DNA of 15,537 nucleotides from Labilithrix luteola (GTDB taxonomy: Bacteria; Myxococcota_A; Polyangia; Polyangiales; Polyangiaceae). The notes below the pieces were generated by a model, which saw only the letters and a list, made by a program, of their open reading frames with translations, searched no databases and was not told where the DNA came from. Shown here one piece after another: positions 5,754 to 10,739 of this stretch; positions within the stretch are counted from its first letter, which is position 1, and each line of letters starts with the position of its first letter. The stretch lies in NCBI GenBank assembly GCA_026225435.1, contig JAMFST010000821.1, positions 1 to 15,537 on the forward strand. The letters are read 5' to 3'. Made by a program: the position numbers and the translations under genes.

Positions 5754-6320
5754 TCAGTGGATCTGGAGCGCGCAACCTAGCGTCTTGGCTTCCGGCACCC
5801 GGACCGGTCGATCCGCCAGCGCATCGTCGAGCGCGTTGGCCAGGTACGGCGTGGCGTCGTCGTGGAGGTCGCGCTTGTCCGAGTCGATCCCCCCGCGGTA
5901 GAGCACCCGGCCCTGCGGATCGACGACCAGCGTGTAGGTCGCGTAGTCGGCGCCCAGCGTGCGCGCCAGCTGGCCCCCTTCATCGTGCACCAGCGGGAAG
6001 GGATAGCGACGGCGCGTCGCCTCCTTCGCCTCGCCGGCGCGATCGAGCGACTCCTCCGAGGAGACCGCGCGGAACGACGCACCGAGCGGGGCGTAGCGAT
6101 CGTGCAGGGCGCGCAGGCGAGCGTCGTGCTGCGCCTGGCAGGGGCAGTGGGCGGAGAAGAACTCGAGCACCGTCACCTTGGCGGCGGGGTCGACGAGCTT
6201 GGCCTCGGCGGGCGCGCCGTCGGTCAACGACGCCGGCAGCGTGGTGGAAGGGACGGTCGCGGCGGCGTGAGTCGCGCAACCGGCGACGAGAACGAAGACG
6301 GAGAGGAGCAGGTGGCGCAT
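5754..6320 (-). CDS. Redoxin/thioredoxin-fold lipoprotein (AhpC/TSA-like)
   Basis: A 188-residue envelope protein. Start ATG 6318-6320 gives a short signal with lipobox VAG-Cys15. The thioredoxin fold is shown by VTVLEFFSAHCPCQ (residues 49-62), a Pro/Asp-rich central part and LVVDPQGRVLYRGGIDSD (131-148), typical of redoxin-family extracytoplasmic proteins. The redox site is Cys59-Pro-Cys61 (C-x-C, not the thioredoxin C-x-x-C). A further conserved-looking Cys183 lies near the C-terminus (LGC). It is the third gene of a leftward operon and starts 2 bp after the stop of the outer-membrane barrel gene. Likely roles are thiol-disulfide exchange, peroxide reduction or metal-thiol chemistry at the membrane. 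SCO-like copper delivery is possible but the family's CxxxC is not present. Confidence 0.88.
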   Translation of the reverse strand: MRHLLLSVFVLVAGCATHAAATVPSTTLPASLTDGAPAEAKLVDPAAKVTVLEFFSAHCPCQAQHDARLRALHDRYAPLGASFRAVSSEESLDRAGEAKEATRRRYPFPLVHDEGGQLARTLGADYATYTLVVDPQGRVLYRGGIDSDKRDLHDDATPYLANALDDALADRPVRVPEAKTLGCALQIH

Positions 6321-6322
6321 CG

Positions 6323-7264
6323 TCAGATCCAGGAGCAGATGAGCGTGAGCGAGAGGCCCGCCGCGGCCGGTTGGCCGGCGCCGAGGGTGGAGATCGGCAG
6401 GTCGTCGAAGACCGCCCCCTGCAGGCGGAAGCGGTCGGACAGCGGAGCGACGCCGGAGATCGTCAGCACGGGCAGGCGCCGCGCGCTCTCGGTGTCGGCG
6501 GTACCGCCGATGGTCGCGTCCCCCTCGACGGTGTACGAGGCGCTCGCCGCCAGGGCCATCTCGTTGGGGAAGATGTACGCGGCGACGGCCAGCCCGGTCC
6601 ACTGCGGGGCGAGGCGCTCGTGCACCTCGCTCGGCCCCTCGCCGACGGTGCGCGCGGTGCGCTGCGCGTAGATGCCGCTCACGCCGACGAGCCAGGGGCC
6701 GTAGGTCTGCTCGAGGGCGAGGCCCACGTTGATCTGGTACGCGCCGATGCCGGTGGCGCCGGTGGCGAGCGTACCCGCGCTGCTCGAGTCGGCGGGGCGG
6801 CCGCTGGGGATGGTGAGGCCGGCGAGCAGGGCGATCCCCGGGACGATGCGCGAGGCGCCGGCGAGGGTGAAGTCGTAGCGACCGGCGAAGTTGACGTCGC
6901 CGATGCCGCCGCCGGCGCCGGTCACGCCGCTAGCGGTGCGCCGCGTCTCGACGAAGGGGACGAGCACCGCCAGCTGGCCGCGCTCGAAGATGCGGACGGC
7001 GCCGAAGAGATCCTCCTCGAAGTCCTGCTCCGAGGCGCGCGCCGGGAGCGCGTGGTAGCTGCCGCCGCCGTCGTAGGAGCCGGTGACCAGCCCCGCCTTG
7101 AGCACCGTGCCGACCAGCGCGGTCTCGTGCAGCGCCAGCCGACCGGGCGTGACCGCTCCGGCTCCGGCGCAGCAAGCCTGCGCATGGGCGACCGACTCGC
7201 GACCGACCGCAACGAGCAGCGCGACGGACAGCGCGGTGGAGGTGGCTCGCCGGGCGCGCGTCAC
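6323..7264 (-). CDS. Outer-membrane beta-barrel (transporter-like) protein with N-terminal Cys-Cys
   Basis: A 313-residue protein beginning at GTG 7264, overlapping the stop of the upstream lipoprotein gene by GTGA. The signal peptide ends near AHA|QA (residue 28). The mature protein starts with ACCAGAGAVTPGRLALHE (Cys31-Cys32), then a run of alternating, Gly- and aromatic-containing strands (FAGRYDFTLA, SGIYAQRT, AYIFPNEMALAASASYTV) as in outer-membrane 8-12-strand barrels. Substrate is unknown. The vicinal cysteines next to the membrane, and its position between a YtkA/FixH-like lipoprotein and a redoxin lipoprotein, suggest a metal- or redox-linked envelope function. It belongs to the leftward operon 7698 to 5754. 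Confidence 0.82.
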   Translation of the reverse strand: MTRARRATSTALSVALLVAVGRESVAHAQACCAGAGAVTPGRLALHETALVGTVLKAGLVTGSYDGGGSYHALPARASEQDFEEDLFGAVRIFERGQLAVLVPFVETRRTASGVTGAGGGIGDVNFAGRYDFTLAGASRIVPGIALLAGLTIPSGRPADSSSAGTLATGATGIGAYQINVGLALEQTYGPWLVGVSGIYAQRTARTVGEGPSEVHERLAPQWTGLAVAAYIFPNEMALAASASYTVEGDATIGGTADTESARRLPVLTISGVAPLSDRFRLQGAVFDDLPISTLGAGQPAAAGLSLTLICSWI

Positions 7265-7698
7265 GGGACGTTGAGCGACGGCGACACCTTGTCCGCGGCG
7301 CCGGCGTCGGCGCTGGCGGCGATTGAGGTGCGCATCTCCCAGACGCCGGGCATGAAGAGATCGGCGTTGGCGATGGTGTACGTCCCCGGCGAGGTCTCGC
7401 TCACCGTCGGGACGATCGAGGTGCCGTGCTGCATGGCCGGCATCCAGGGGACGACGGTCAAGGCGAGCCCGGCCGCGGGTGCGCCGCCGTCGATGTAGAC
7501 GAGATCGAGCGCCACCGACTGGTTGCCAAGCGGCGGCGGATCGCTCGACGCGTGGAGCGTCGCCTGCAGCGCGCCCGAGGTGCTGGTCGCCACGCTGGAG
7601 CCGCCGCCGCTCGAGCCACTGCTGGAGCTGCAGGCGGCGAGCGCGGCCGACGCGACGAGCGCGACGACGCCGGTGAAGCGGTACGAGACCGAGAGCAT
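7261..7698 (-). CDS. YtkA/FixH-like lipoprotein
   Basis: A 145-residue lipoprotein with Cys23 in an AAC lipobox, then a Ser/Gly linker. The domain from about residue 42 carries PWMPAMQHG (84-92) and TYTIANADLFMPGVWEMR (106-123). This is the pattern of the YtkA-like/FixH-like beta-sandwich families, where conserved Met and His residues in the MP-x-M-x-HG turn could bind a metal. Family members cluster with copper and cytochrome-oxidase assembly genes, but none with this context has a role known to me. Start ATG 7696-7698 has an AGAGGG Shine-Dalgarno at 7703-7708. It is the first gene of the leftward operon, and its TGA overlaps the next gene's GTG. Confidence 0.82.
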   Translation of the reverse strand: MLSVSYRFTGVVALVASAALAACSSSSGSSGGGSSVATSTSGALQATLHASSDPPPLGNQSVALDLVYIDGGAPAAGLALTVVPWMPAMQHGTSIVPTVSETSPGTYTIANADLFMPGVWEMRTSIAASADAGAADKVSPSLNVP

Positions 7699-7831
7699 GG
7701 TGCCCTCTTAGGCGGCGAAGGCGCTCCTGGCGATGTGGCAAATCGACGCACCGCCCGGCGCATGTCGACCGACCGCGTGCGACGATTCGCCGCACGACCA
7801 GGCGCCTCACGGCGGTCTAGGGTCCGCCGCC
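7699..7831. promoter_or_regulatory. Divergent intergenic control region with two RegA/PrrA-box-like sites
   Basis: This 133-bp region separates the two divergent operons. Site 1 (7735-7749) reads GTGGCAAATCGACGC and site 2 (7779-7793) GCGACGATTCGCCGC. They share GYGRCRAWTCGMCGC and both fit the RegA/PrrA half-site layout G-N-G-R-C...G-N-C-G-C as I recall it. Their centres are 44 bp apart, about four helical turns. Site 2 lies in a 19-bp near-palindrome (7777-7795; 8 of 9 arm positions pair). I see no convincing -35/-10 elements. Because the rightward operon ends with a RegB/RegA pair, autoregulation of both operons is a natural inference. G+C-rich DNA gives such matches by chance a few times per window, so the pair, not a single site, is the evidence. 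Confidence 0.55.
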
Positions 7832-8470
7832 ATGAACGTACGATTGATCCCGCTGGCCGCGCTGGCCGGCGTCGCCGCGATGACCGCCGCCTGCTCGAAC
7901 AGCTCGTCGACCGGCGGCAGCGACACGAACCTCGACGTGCAAGGGCTCTCGTTCACCACCGCGGCGGCCGTCGGCTACGACGACGGCGGGAGCGGCGTGG
8001 CTCACTGCATCGCCTCCGACGGCACGCCCATCACGCAGACAACCAGCGAGTCCTCCTGCTACACCGACGCCGGTACGGGCGACGACAGCACCACGTCCGA
8101 CTACGGCGCGACGATGAACGGGAGCACCGGCAACGACGACGACTGCAAGTACCTGGTGTCCTGGCAGTCCACCGCGGTGAGCGAGAACGCGCCGGTGTAC
8201 TTCCAGGTCACCGTCGACCAGACGGATCCGAGCGGCCAGCCGGTGACCGGCGCGCCGCCGCGGCTCGAGGTCTACCTCGACGACACGCACCCGGCCCCCA
8301 ACACCACGGTGAAGAACGACGAGACGACCCCGGGCACCTACGTGGTCGGCCCCATCCTCTTCGACGCGCCGGGCGACTGGACCGTGCGCTTCCACGTGCA
8401 CGAGGAGTGCGCCGACATCCTCGACGACTCGCCTCACGGACACGCGGCGTTCTTCGTGCAGGTCCCGTGA
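7832..8470 (+). CDS. FixH/YtkA-like lipoprotein with HVHEEC and SPHGH motifs
   Basis: A 212-residue lipoprotein with Cys21 in an AAC lipobox. ATG 7832 has AGGG 10 nt upstream. Residues ~45-110 form an Asp/Ser/Thr-rich segment with Cys59, Cys76 and Cys105. Residues ~110-212 are a beta-sandwich-like domain: PVYFQVTVDQTD, LEVYLDDTHPAPNTTV, TPGTYVVGPILFDAPGDWTVRF (167-187), then HVHEECADI (188-196) and SPHGHAAFFV (200-209). The GTY...PGDW pattern is that of FixH/YtkA-like domains, also present in the divergent gene 7261-7698. The clustered His188, His190, Cys193, His202 and His204 form a plausible metal site. Its TGA overlaps the GTG of the cytochrome gene (8467-8470), so the two are translationally coupled. 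Confidence 0.82.
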   Translation: MNVRLIPLAALAGVAAMTAACSNSSSTGGSDTNLDVQGLSFTTAAAVGYDDGGSGVAHCIASDGTPITQTTSESSCYTDAGTGDDSTTSDYGATMNGSTGNDDDCKYLVSWQSTAVSENAPVYFQVTVDQTDPSGQPVTGAPPRLEVYLDDTHPAPNTTVKNDETTPGTYVVGPILFDAPGDWTVRFHVHEECADILDDSPHGHAAFFVQVP

Positions 8471-8868
8471 GGCGCTGGCTGCTCTCGGTCCCCGTGGCCG
8501 CGGCTCTCCTCGCCAGCGCGGCGTGCGGCAACGGAGGAATGTCCGCGCCCGATTACGGCCCCGCAGAGGCCGTCATCTGCCCGAACGATCTGCCGAGCAG
8601 CTGCCCCGTCCCCACGCCGAGCTACGCCAGCGACGTGCAGCCGATCATCGCCCAGCGCTGCGTCATCTGCCACGAGAGCGGAGGGCTCGAGGTCGCCCCG
8701 TTCGATCTCGGCACCTACTCCGACGTGTTCACCGATCGCAGCGCGGTGCTCGATCAGGTCTACGCTTGCGCGATGCCGCGGGTCGACAGCGCCGGCGCGC
8801 TCCCGCTGACCGAGAGCGAACGGACGACCTTGCTCGGCTGGCTGGTCTGCGGCGCGCCACAGAACTAG
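8467..8868 (+). CDS. Single-haem c-type cytochrome-like lipoprotein
   Basis: A 133-residue protein from GTG 8467 (GTGA overlap with the preceding gene). The signal peptide ends in an SAAC lipobox (Cys20). The haem c motif CVICH lies at Cys65-Cys68-His69, preceded by YASDVQPIIAQR, the usual lead-in of myxobacterial small cytochromes. Met103 in ACAMPR is the candidate second axial ligand. The end LTESERTTLLGWLVCGAPQN is typical of that group. It probably carries electrons, or senses redox state, on the outer face of the inner membrane or on the outer membrane. It is the second gene of the rightward operon, directly before the redox histidine kinase. Confidence 0.87.
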   Translation: MRRWLLSVPVAAALLASAACGNGGMSAPDYGPAEAVICPNDLPSSCPVPTPSYASDVQPIIAQRCVICHESGGLEVAPFDLGTYSDVFTDRSAVLDQVYACAMPRVDSAGALPLTESERTTLLGWLVCGAPQN

Positions 8869-8883
8869 AGACGTCGCTTCGTC

Positions 8884-10167
8884 ATGCTCTCCCCGTCTGC
8901 CATCACCTTGCGCTGGGTCTCCCGGCTGCGCTGGGGAGCGGCGGTCGGCCAGGCGCTCACCGTGGTCGCCACCGCGACGCTGTTTCATCTGCCGGTGCCG
9001 ACCGGGTGGCTCGCGCTGGTCATCGGGGCGACCGTGGTGACCAACATCGCGCTCGTCACCTGGCTGCGCCGGCCGCGCGAGGTGTCGCCGCGGCTGCTCG
9101 CCGGCGTGCTCGCCTTCGACACCGCCTCGCTCTACGCGCTGCTCTACCTGACCGGCGGGCCCTCCAACCCGTTCAGCGTGCTCTTTCTCGTGCAGATCGC
9201 GCTCGCCGCGCTGGTGCTCGGCCTCGGCTACGCGCTCGGCATCACCGTCCTGTCGACCGCGGCCTACGCGGCGCTCTTCGCCAGCAACGTGCCGCTCGCG
9301 GGGATGGAGCACATGCACCACGCCGGTACCTCGGCGTTCAGCGTGCACCTGCAGGGGATGTTCGTCGCCTTCCTCCTGGCCGCGGTGCTCATCGCCTACT
9401 TCGTGACCCGCGTGGCTCTCGAGCTCCGCACCCGCGAGCGCGCGCTGGCCATCGCCGAGCGCCGGGCGCAGACCAACGAGAAGCTCGCCTCGCTGAGCAC
9501 CCTGGCGGCAGGCGCCGCGCACGAGCTGGGGACGCCGCTGGCCACCATCGCCGTCATCGCCACCGAGCTCGAACGCGCCGCCGCTCGACTCCCCGACGAG
9601 GCCGGGGCGCGCAGCCTGCTCGAGGATGCGCGGCTGGTGCGCGCCCAGGTGGAGCGCTGCAGCGCGATCGTCCGCCAGATGAGCCGCGACGCCGGCGGCA
9701 CGCCCGGGGAAGCGCCGGAGCCGCTGGCCGCGCGCGAGGTGACCGCGAGGCTCCTCCGTGGTGTGGAGCCGGAGCAGGTCGATCGCCTCGACGTGGAGAC
9801 GGTCGACGTCGAGCTGCACCTGCCGCCGCGCGCGCTGGTCCAAGTGCTGGGCAGCCTCGTCAAGAACGCCTTCGACGCCAGCCAGGCCGACGGACGGGTG
9901 CGCCTGTCGCTGGAGACGCGGGTGGAGGACGGCTCGCCGCGCGCCCGCTTCGTGGTGGGCGATCGCGGACTCGGGATGAGCGACGACGAGCTGGCGCGCA
10001 TCGGCGAGCCCTTCTTCACCACCAAGCCGCCGGGCGCGGGGTTGGGGCTCGGCGTGTTCCTCGCGCGCGCCTTCGCCGATCGTCTCGGCGGTCACCTCTC
10101 GTTCACGTCGCAGCCCGGTCAGGGGACGACGGTGGTGCTCGACCTTCCCACGGCGTGCCCCGAGTGA
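8884..10167 (+). CDS. regB: RegB/PrrB/ActS-like redox-sensing histidine kinase
   Basis: A 427-residue membrane kinase with six hydrophobic segments in residues ~18-178. It carries the RegB quinone-associated heptapeptide GGxxNPF as GGPSNPF (91-97). The phosphoacceptor box AAGAAHELGTPLATI (208-222, His213) is the RegB type. ATPase boxes follow: N (Asn328, KNAFDAS), G1 (DRGLGM 360-365), F (PFFTTK 376-381) and G2 (GAGLGLG 384-390). Cys259 (VERCSAIV) sits 46 residues after His213, in the region where RegB has its redox-active cysteine (40 residues after its His). In RegB family members, oxidised quinone or an oxidised thiol turns the kinase off. A loop at 141-155 (MEHMHH...H) is Met/His-rich. The stop overlaps the next gene's GTG. 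The gene starts 15 bp after the cytochrome gene. Confidence 0.92.
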   Translation: MLSPSAITLRWVSRLRWGAAVGQALTVVATATLFHLPVPTGWLALVIGATVVTNIALVTWLRRPREVSPRLLAGVLAFDTASLYALLYLTGGPSNPFSVLFLVQIALAALVLGLGYALGITVLSTAAYAALFASNVPLAGMEHMHHAGTSAFSVHLQGMFVAFLLAAVLIAYFVTRVALELRTRERALAIAERRAQTNEKLASLSTLAAGAAHELGTPLATIAVIATELERAAARLPDEAGARSLLEDARLVRAQVERCSAIVRQMSRDAGGTPGEAPEPLAAREVTARLLRGVEPEQVDRLDVETVDVELHLPPRALVQVLGSLVKNAFDASQADGRVRLSLETRVEDGSPRARFVVGDRGLGMSDDELARIGEPFFTTKPPGAGLGLGVFLARAFADRLGGHLSFTSQPGQGTTVVLDLPTACPE

Positions 10168-10739
10168 CCGACAGCGCGCGCACCATCCTGGTCGTCGACG
10201 ACGACGACGCCTTGCGCACGCGGCTGGTGCGCGCCTTCACCGAGCGAGGGCTCGAAGCGCGCGGCGCCGCCAGCGCCGAGGCGGCGGTCACCCTGGCCAC
10301 GAGCGACAGCCCCGAGCTCGCGGTGGTCGATCTGCGGATGCCGGGCAGCTCCGGCCTGCAGCTGGTCCGCGAGCTGGTCACCATCGACCGCGCGACCCGC
10401 GTGGTGGTGCTCACCGGCTACGGCAGCATCGCGACCGCGCTCGAGGCGGTCCGCCTGGGCGCCGTGCACTACCTGACCAAGCCGGCGGACGCCGAGCAGA
10501 TCCTCGCCGCCTTCGACCGCCCCACCGCCGCCGACGGGAGCGCCGCCAGCGACGACGCCGGTGGCGAGCAGGAGCCGGTGGTCATCGGCGAGGTCGCCTC
10601 GCTGGCGCGCGCCGAGTGGGAGCACATCCAGCGCGTCCTCACCGACTGCGGCGGAAACGTCTCCCAGGCGGCGCGCCTCCTCGGAATCCACCGCCGCAGC
10701 CTGCAGCGCAAGCTGTCCAAATATCCGCTACCGCGCTGA
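10164..10739 (+). CDS. regA: RegA/PrrA/ActR-like response regulator
   Basis: A 191-residue regulator from GTG 10164, overlapping the kinase stop by GTGA. The receiver domain has the acidic pocket Asp12-Asp14 (VVDDDDA), phosphoacceptor Asp56 (VVDLRMPG), Thr84 and Lys106 (TKPAD). A flexible Ala/Asp/Gly linker (~119-135) leads to a Fis-type helix-turn-helix: CGGNVSQAARLLGIHRRSLQ (162-181), with the HRRSLQRKL end characteristic of RegA/PrrA/ActR. In alphaproteobacteria this regulator controls respiration, cytochrome oxidases and carbon or nitrogen fixation by redox state. It ends the rightward operon and overlaps the end of the convergent GST gene by 12 bp. Likely targets include the twin sites at 7735-7793. 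Confidence 0.92.
   Translation: MTDSARTILVVDDDDALRTRLVRAFTERGLEARGAASAEAAVTLATSDSPELAVVDLRMPGSSGLQLVRELVTIDRATRVVVLTGYGSIATALEAVRLGAVHYLTKPADAEQILAAFDRPTAADGSAASDDAGGEQEPVVIGEVASLARAEWEHIQRVLTDCGGNVSQAARLLGIHRRSLQRKLSKYPLPR

Follow-up and report, generated by a model that had tools for sequence, protein, structure and literature searches.

Gene content of the divergent cluster

The window analyzed here, the whole 15,537-nucleotide stretch, is one contig (JAMFST010000821.1, our C87) of a 6.8-Mb Labilithrix luteola genome that comprises 1502 contigs and is 80% complete. It has a G+C content of 71% and contains seven tightly packed genes in two divergent arms flanking a 133-bp promoter region (7699-7831), among them a RegB/RegA-like pair of sensor kinase and regulator, YtkA-type lipoproteins, and an outer-membrane channel. 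An earlier note on this DNA had placed the seven genes, and all of them were found at those positions. The extreme packing that it described was also confirmed on the sequence, with three GTGA overlaps (7261-7264, 8467-8470, and 10164-10167) and a 2-bp gap (6321-6322) between the redoxin and channel genes. Inside the promoter region lies a predicted 17-bp RegA-type operator, TGCGACGATTCGCCGCA (7778-7794).

The sensor pair ends the rightward arm. The membrane histidine kinase (8884-10167, plus strand) has an HATPase_c domain and six hydropathic stretches within residues 33 to 182, some of them overlapping, and a Pfam scan gave no further sensor domain. Its GGPSNPF sequence fits GGxxNPF, given as the quinone motif in the membrane part of RegB in excerpts of PMC8191878. 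This motif was present in 44 of the 51 aligned kinases, the window's included, compared to 51 for the H-box His (H213, in AHELGTPL) and 46 for the redox-box Cys (C259). The equivalence of C259 to Cys265 of Rhodobacter capsulatus is putative; the His and Cys are 46 residues apart in the window kinase and presumably 40 apart in R. capsulatus. The regulator (10164-10739, plus strand) combines Response_reg and HTH_8 domains, the latter with a Fis-type helix-turn-helix (HTH). A Cys in LTDCGGNVS, three residues ahead of the N of NVS in the HTH region, matches the position of RegA Cys156, which in R. capsulatus sits in VYELCDR just before the HTH (PMC9147068, in excerpt). This Cys was found in 37 of the 48 aligned regulators, again including the window's. 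RegB-like genes on plasmids amounted to 1470 records, none of them above 60% identity.

The leftward arm begins with the YtkA lipoprotein (7261-7698, minus strand), which scored 28.1 bits with PF13115 (cut-off, 25.9) and has a LAAC lipobox. It has Met and His residues that are invariant in the aligned relatives, and in the fold search it came closest to CrdA, a copper resistance determinant, at 22% identity; these residues together with the fold suggest that the protein may bind copper. The next gene (6323-7264, minus strand) encodes a channel of the FapF/COG4313 type with a Cys-Cys pair directly after the signal peptide. It scored 23.5 bits with PF13557 (cut-off, 22), and the structure model (predicted local distance difference test [pLDDT] score, 91.4) has about 12 to 13 long strands. 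FapF and 4rl8 were the top matches in the fold search, with template modeling scores to the query of 0.63 to 0.71, as for a barrel fold. The second Cys was invariant in 37 of 37 aligned sequences and present in 51 of 58 in a wider comparison. The arm ends with an AhpC/TSA-like redoxin lipoprotein (5754-6320, minus strand) carrying a CPC...H motif and a C-terminal GC (AhpC/Redoxin, 1.9e-10; nearest solved chain, 2ywi, 2.6e-11). None of the seven genes belongs to the SCO/SenC family; the redoxin of the divergent arm matches AhpC/TSA instead.

The rightward arm begins with a second YtkA-like lipoprotein (7832-8470, plus strand) that has conserved DD(D/E)CK, FH...C, and HxH sequences. The earlier note had seen two related FixH/YtkA-like lipoproteins leading the two arms. 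The one at 7261-7698 passes the YtkA cut-off, but that at 7832-8470 reached only 21.1 bits against the same 25.9 and conserves other residues, so the two are not close twins. Similarly, the small lipoprotein that follows (8467-8868, plus strand), called a cytochrome in that note, does have a single CxxCH heme motif, CVICH, but its cytochrome family match was below the threshold. In the window without its two ends, the flanking genes encode DNA-glycosylase-like proteins, a DUF481 protein, MscL, a GST-like protein, a PLD protein, and a phosphoesterase, and they look unrelated to the module.

Linkage of sensor, channel, and copper-protein genes

The channel was found in 46 of the 144 genomes searched, including the window's own. 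Forty regions were fetched around channel matches, and another 40 around kinase matches not already covered. Genes were called with a codon model, and their profile-based labels may err in single cases; some of the channel-locus regions, 41 with the window, stop at contig ends. A YtkA or YtkA-like gene lay within 1.5 kb of the channel at 35 of the 41 loci, a redoxin within 2 kb at 22, a cytochrome-labeled gene within 6 kb at 8, and the sensor pair within 6 kb at 14. All families of the module occurred together at only three loci, the window counted, which rules out a fixed seven-gene operon. The co-occurrence across Myxococcota that the earlier note had proposed to look for thus holds for the core and not for the full set, and its self-contained seven-gene system gives way to a smaller core with optional genes, varying orientation, a majority of channel loci without the pair, and predicted targets beyond the cluster. 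The recurring core consists of the RegB/RegA-like pair, a YtkA lipoprotein, and the outer-membrane channel.

Three further comparisons bear on this linkage. First, the 40 kinase-chosen loci included the channel at 17, YtkA at 7, MbnP at 12, and any of these at 24, counts that are low rather than high because kinases already fetched with a channel were left out. Second, in whole-genome match lists the kinase lay within 10 kb of MbnP in 22 of the 60 genomes having both, and within 10 kb of YtkA in 20 of 43, where a rough estimate of the expectation was about 0.2 in either case. The genomes with kinase-linked YtkA and those with kinase-linked MbnP did not overlap, and YtkA and MbnP therefore look like alternatives. 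A good example of the MbnP type is locus L107, where curated models gave 286 bits for MbnP (cut-off, 140) and 519 bits for MbnH (cut-off, 363). Third, in other families of the phylum the channel was found in 58 of 282 genomes, and at the fetched channel loci YtkA adjoined the channel in 18 of 20 and the sensor pair in 6 of 20. Close channel relatives in named genomes (26 loci) came from Myxococcota, including Minicystis rosea, Labilithrix, Sorangium, and Byssovorax, or from metagenome-assembled genomes labeled Deltaproteobacteria or Proteobacteria. The sensor pair does not stand beside the envelope genes by accident.

Other genes were seen in these neighborhoods. A lipoprotein-like family of 206 to 255 amino acids (aa) occurred near the channel at eight loci (L104, L106, L107, L109, L116, L117, L119, and L120), mostly between the channel and MbnP/MbnH; three members scanned had no Pfam match, and one had no NCBIfam match. 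Multiheme cytochrome genes lay near YtkA genes (L082:4890-6233, which is C554-like, and L081:9174-10454, also in L071, L076, L080, L093, L094, and L103), and in L080, L082, and L103 this gene and the kinase gene have 4 bp in common. Within a single family of the order (L117, L118, L120, L124, L125, and L141), a RegB-like kinase stands beside a gene that we take from its sequence to be dnaK, mostly with presumed grpE-like and sometimes hrcA-like neighbors.

The predicted operator and its targets

GCGNC-N5-GNCGC, taken as the PrrA consensus, was tested because the HTH of the regulator resembles that of PrrA/RegA. Excerpts of PMC4263372 propose a degenerate GCG inverted repeat with a varying spacer as the PrrA/RegA target, and example PrrA sites are given in the accessible part of PMC7561615. 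When GCGNC-Nk-GNCGC was searched in 125 upstream regions of module genes with shuffles as the control, only k = 5 stood out, with 53 sites in 48 of the 125 regions compared to 8.0 ± 3.2 in the shuffles. Only 28 of 329 other upstream regions were positive (p = 6e-13), although this and the other operator p-values are optimistic because sites in close relatives are not independent (for example, L080/L103, L121/L122, and L106/L107/L109; G019, G058, and G078 are from the same genus). The consensus of fifty full sites was YGCGRCRA-N-TYGYCGCR. At new loci from other families the spacer preference repeated, with 6 of 27 regions positive and 5 distinct sites compared to 0.76 expected; the other 21 regions had no site. 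Reading the operator from the window alone was dropped, as its loose core occurred at 8 sites compared to 8.08 by chance.

In the 6.8-Mb genome, the exact 17-bp pattern occurred at two places, 7778-7794 and on contig C865, and the reversed control pattern at one. The C865 site is 48 bp ahead of a gene (L192:3396-3890) whose small product, of 164 aa, has an N terminus resembling a signal peptide and could not be assigned to a family with confidence. The same genome has a second RegB/RegA-like pair, on contig C193 (G000:C193:656-1858), with a variant upstream site, GCGTC-N5-GACGC.

The operator also followed the presence of RegA, taken as a match at 1e-22 or better in the genome (weak matches in G002 and G029 included). 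The main test used all YtkA and channel upstream regions and the original loose pattern; 5 of the 41 loci, whose upstream regions could not be used, were left out. Sites were present at 18 of 23 channel loci with RegA in the genome compared to 2 of 13 without it (p = 4e-4), and, among channel loci without a nearby kinase, at 8 of 13 compared to 1 of 12 (p = 0.011). Among the genomes counted as lacking RegA, G113 has kinase and regulator fragments adjoining the module. Two earlier tests were confined to an interval of set length ahead of the channel and so overlooked operons in which two YtkA genes precede it. The fixed interval gave 9 of 25 compared to 2 of 14 for the strict pattern (p = 0.27), 15 of 25 compared to 2 of 14 for the broad pattern (p = 0.008), and 18 of 25 compared to 6 of 14 for the loose pattern (p = 0.095). 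The association was tested in several forms, of which the fixed-interval ones were weaker. These results bear on whether the sensor pair has nothing to do with the envelope genes beside it, with the operator belonging to another Fis-type regulator. This would fit the 27 of 41 channel loci without a pair within 6 kb, as well as G016, which has a site without a RegA match at 1e-22. However, the pair stands next to the channel again at 6 of the 20 loci fetched from other families of the phylum, and the site follows the presence of RegA, so we consider chance neighborhood very improbable.

Across the genomes of 10 relatives, all largely complete, 29 places matched the strict pattern and 29 the reversed one (12 of the latter in one genome). 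A genome-wide excess was therefore rejected; only the position before genes differs. Twenty-eight strict places were classified: 12 were at most 300 bp upstream of a gene, 14 were inside genes, and 2 were elsewhere. Upstream placement was thus 12 of 28 compared to 1 of 29 control places (p = 4e-4), and 10 of 26 without the two MbnP cases (p = 0.0016). The 29th strict place, in G078, is ahead of an MbnP operon. The twelve upstream cases comprised MbnP (two), the CcmH family (two), QrcA-like multiheme cytochromes below their family cut-off (two), Sec-dependent NosZ (851 bits; cut-off, 625), heme O synthase (283 bits; cut-off, 210), a DUF1775/YcnI-like protein, a protein that we take to be ClpX-like, and two without a family name. 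The MbnP and CcmH cases were all from one genus. On these sequence matches, the nosZ, heme O synthase, ccmH, and YcnI-like genes are predicted operator targets beyond the cluster. A table of R. capsulatus RegA targets in excerpts of PMC5359404 lists nosZ and other nos genes. A gene for a fasciclin-domain protein (L197:6144-6713) adjoins nosZ and the operator, and a fasciclin protein is described as Prr regulated in Rhodobacter sphaeroides (PMC7561615, in part).

An alternative is that the pair is a general respiration regulator whose neighbors happen to be thiol or oxidative-stress envelope proteins, copper not being central. The module does encode a redoxin as well as a cytochrome, QrcA-like cytochrome genes and the presumed ClpX-like gene are also preceded by predicted sites, and RegA-type regulators control broad energy metabolism according to the same excerpts of PMC5359404. 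On the other hand, MbnP and YtkA recur as partners far above chance, and 19 of the 41 channel loci have no labeled redoxin within 2 kb. We therefore regard this alternative as improbable.

Proposed function and comparison with known systems

Taken together, the RegB/RegA-like pair probably controls an envelope copper-handling set through 7778-7794, giving a redox-gated copper supply for respiration. The genes, residues, fold match, conserved linkage, operator, and association of the operator with RegA are computed results; from them we infer copper binding, the direction of transport, the signal, and the sign of regulation. In this scheme, a redox change in the electron-transport chain, at the level of quinones or thiols, would lead the kinase to set the phosphorylation of the regulator, which would act at 7778-7794 to turn both arms up or down. 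The channel, with its Cys pair at the mature start, would admit copper or pass it on, and the lipoproteins would hold it through Met and His. The redoxin and small c-type cytochrome may hold the copper and its ligands in the oxidation state needed to supply the copper and heme enzymes that serve respiration. The earlier note had guessed at copper handling or respiratory-chain protection, and this link to copper and respiration is well supported indirectly by the CrdA-like fold, the MbnP/MbnH partners in relatives, and the shared operator that elsewhere stands ahead of nosZ, heme O synthase, ccmH, and a YcnI-like gene.

The leading alternative is copper defense, in which the set would sequester and expel excess periplasmic copper, a role proposed for CrdA in Helicobacter pylori, and the sensor would react to copper-damaged respiration or thiols. 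That the best fold match is a copper resistance determinant fits this explanation, and tolerance operons with two-component systems are known in myxobacteria, namely CorSR/curA (PMC3707914, in excerpt). However, the kinase has RegB features and no other Pfam sensor domain, and the other predicted targets (nosZ, heme O synthase, and ccmH) are copper or heme enzymes or assembly factors. The scanned window genes included neither a P1B ATPase nor a multicopper oxidase nor an RND pump, a weak argument as the window ends and most neighbors in relatives lay outside the scan. We regard defense as less likely than supply but give it more weight than the other alternatives.

Several observations count against redox-gated copper supply, among them the non-independent sites, the failed reading from the window alone, the equal numbers of strict and reversed places, and the weaker fixed-interval tests described above. 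The kinase scored 247.3 bits with the RegB-type model NF033792 of NCBIfam (equivalog cut-off, 350) and the regulator 162.2 bits with the RegA-type NF033791 (cut-off, 250); because both are below the cut-offs, the proteins are called RegB- and RegA-like and not members. In 3rqi, the closest regulator with a solved structure, Asn takes the place of the Cys ahead of the HTH, and residues 32 to 38 of the channel model, the stretch with the second Cys, have a pLDDT below 50. The pair was not seen within 6 kb at 27 of the 41 channel loci, some in regions ending at contig ends, and 16 of the 40 kinase-chosen loci had no channel, YtkA, or MbnP within 6 kb. A RegB-like kinase at the score tier used was present in 24 of the 46 channel genomes compared to 91 of 144 overall, so the pair is not obligatory for the channel. 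Finally, the search gave no MbnP in the genome to which the window belongs, which is 80% complete.

A broader proposal, which we advance tentatively and hold at somewhat short of an even chance, is that in Myxococcota the RegB/RegA-type pair is a dedicated regulator of periplasmic copper supply, linking quinone-pool redox state through one 17-bp operator to interchangeable YtkA or MbnP/MbnH, one channel family, and copper and heme enzymes such as NosZ. Little is known of how copper delivery in bacteria is adjusted to respiratory state, particularly at the outer membrane. In the present case, position and a shared operator join a redox sensor, two types of copper protein that replace each other, and one channel family into a testable regulon, and MbnP/MbnH, whose role has been unclear, gains a regulatory context. 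This may explain why RegB/RegA and the copper chaperone SenC travel together in alphaproteobacteria; if the proposal is true, RegB-SenC-RegA would be one case of a wider, older rule. No published link between YtkA or MbnP and RegB was found in the limited collection of literature searched.

Compared to known systems, the pair is most like RegB/RegA (PrrB/PrrA, ActS/ActR) of alphaproteobacteria, with which it shares kinase and regulator architecture and redox residues, although it scores below the equivalog cut-offs. Excerpts of PMC9147068 state that group 1 RegB/RegA genes are invariably cotranscribed with senC, which encodes a copper-binding protein, and that RegA binds copper; in the window, the place of senC is taken by YtkA-type lipoproteins together with a channel and a different redoxin. 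The PMC4263372 excerpts describe the PrrA spacer as varying, whereas the module genes studied here prefer 5 bp. The lipoprotein at 7261-7698 shares its Pfam domain with CtaK (YtkA) and YcnJ of Bacillus subtilis. YtkA/CtaK has been implicated in CuA assembly and postulated to work with Sco (PMC13344008, in part), but the setting there is Gram positive, with the copper-dependent repressor YcnK, and an outer-membrane channel does not apply. The closest solved fold to this lipoprotein, Helicobacter pylori CrdA, is a copper protein of small size that is secreted and has a Met-rich site (excerpts of PMC9182242); it shares 22% identity, lacks His and Cys, and is described as a resistance determinant. 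In relatives, a sensor and channel of this kind are accompanied by MbnP/MbnH as an alternative. A 2013 survey describes the conservation of this pair as reaching well outside the organisms that make methanobactin, and its role as unclear (PMC3621798, in excerpt); the window's genome gave no such pair. CorSR/curA of Myxococcus xanthus likewise places a two-component system inside a copper operon in the same phylum, but CorR differs in its sigma-54 interaction domain, and for tolerance the operon includes genes for a P1B ATPase and for a multicopper oxidase (PMC3707914, in excerpt).

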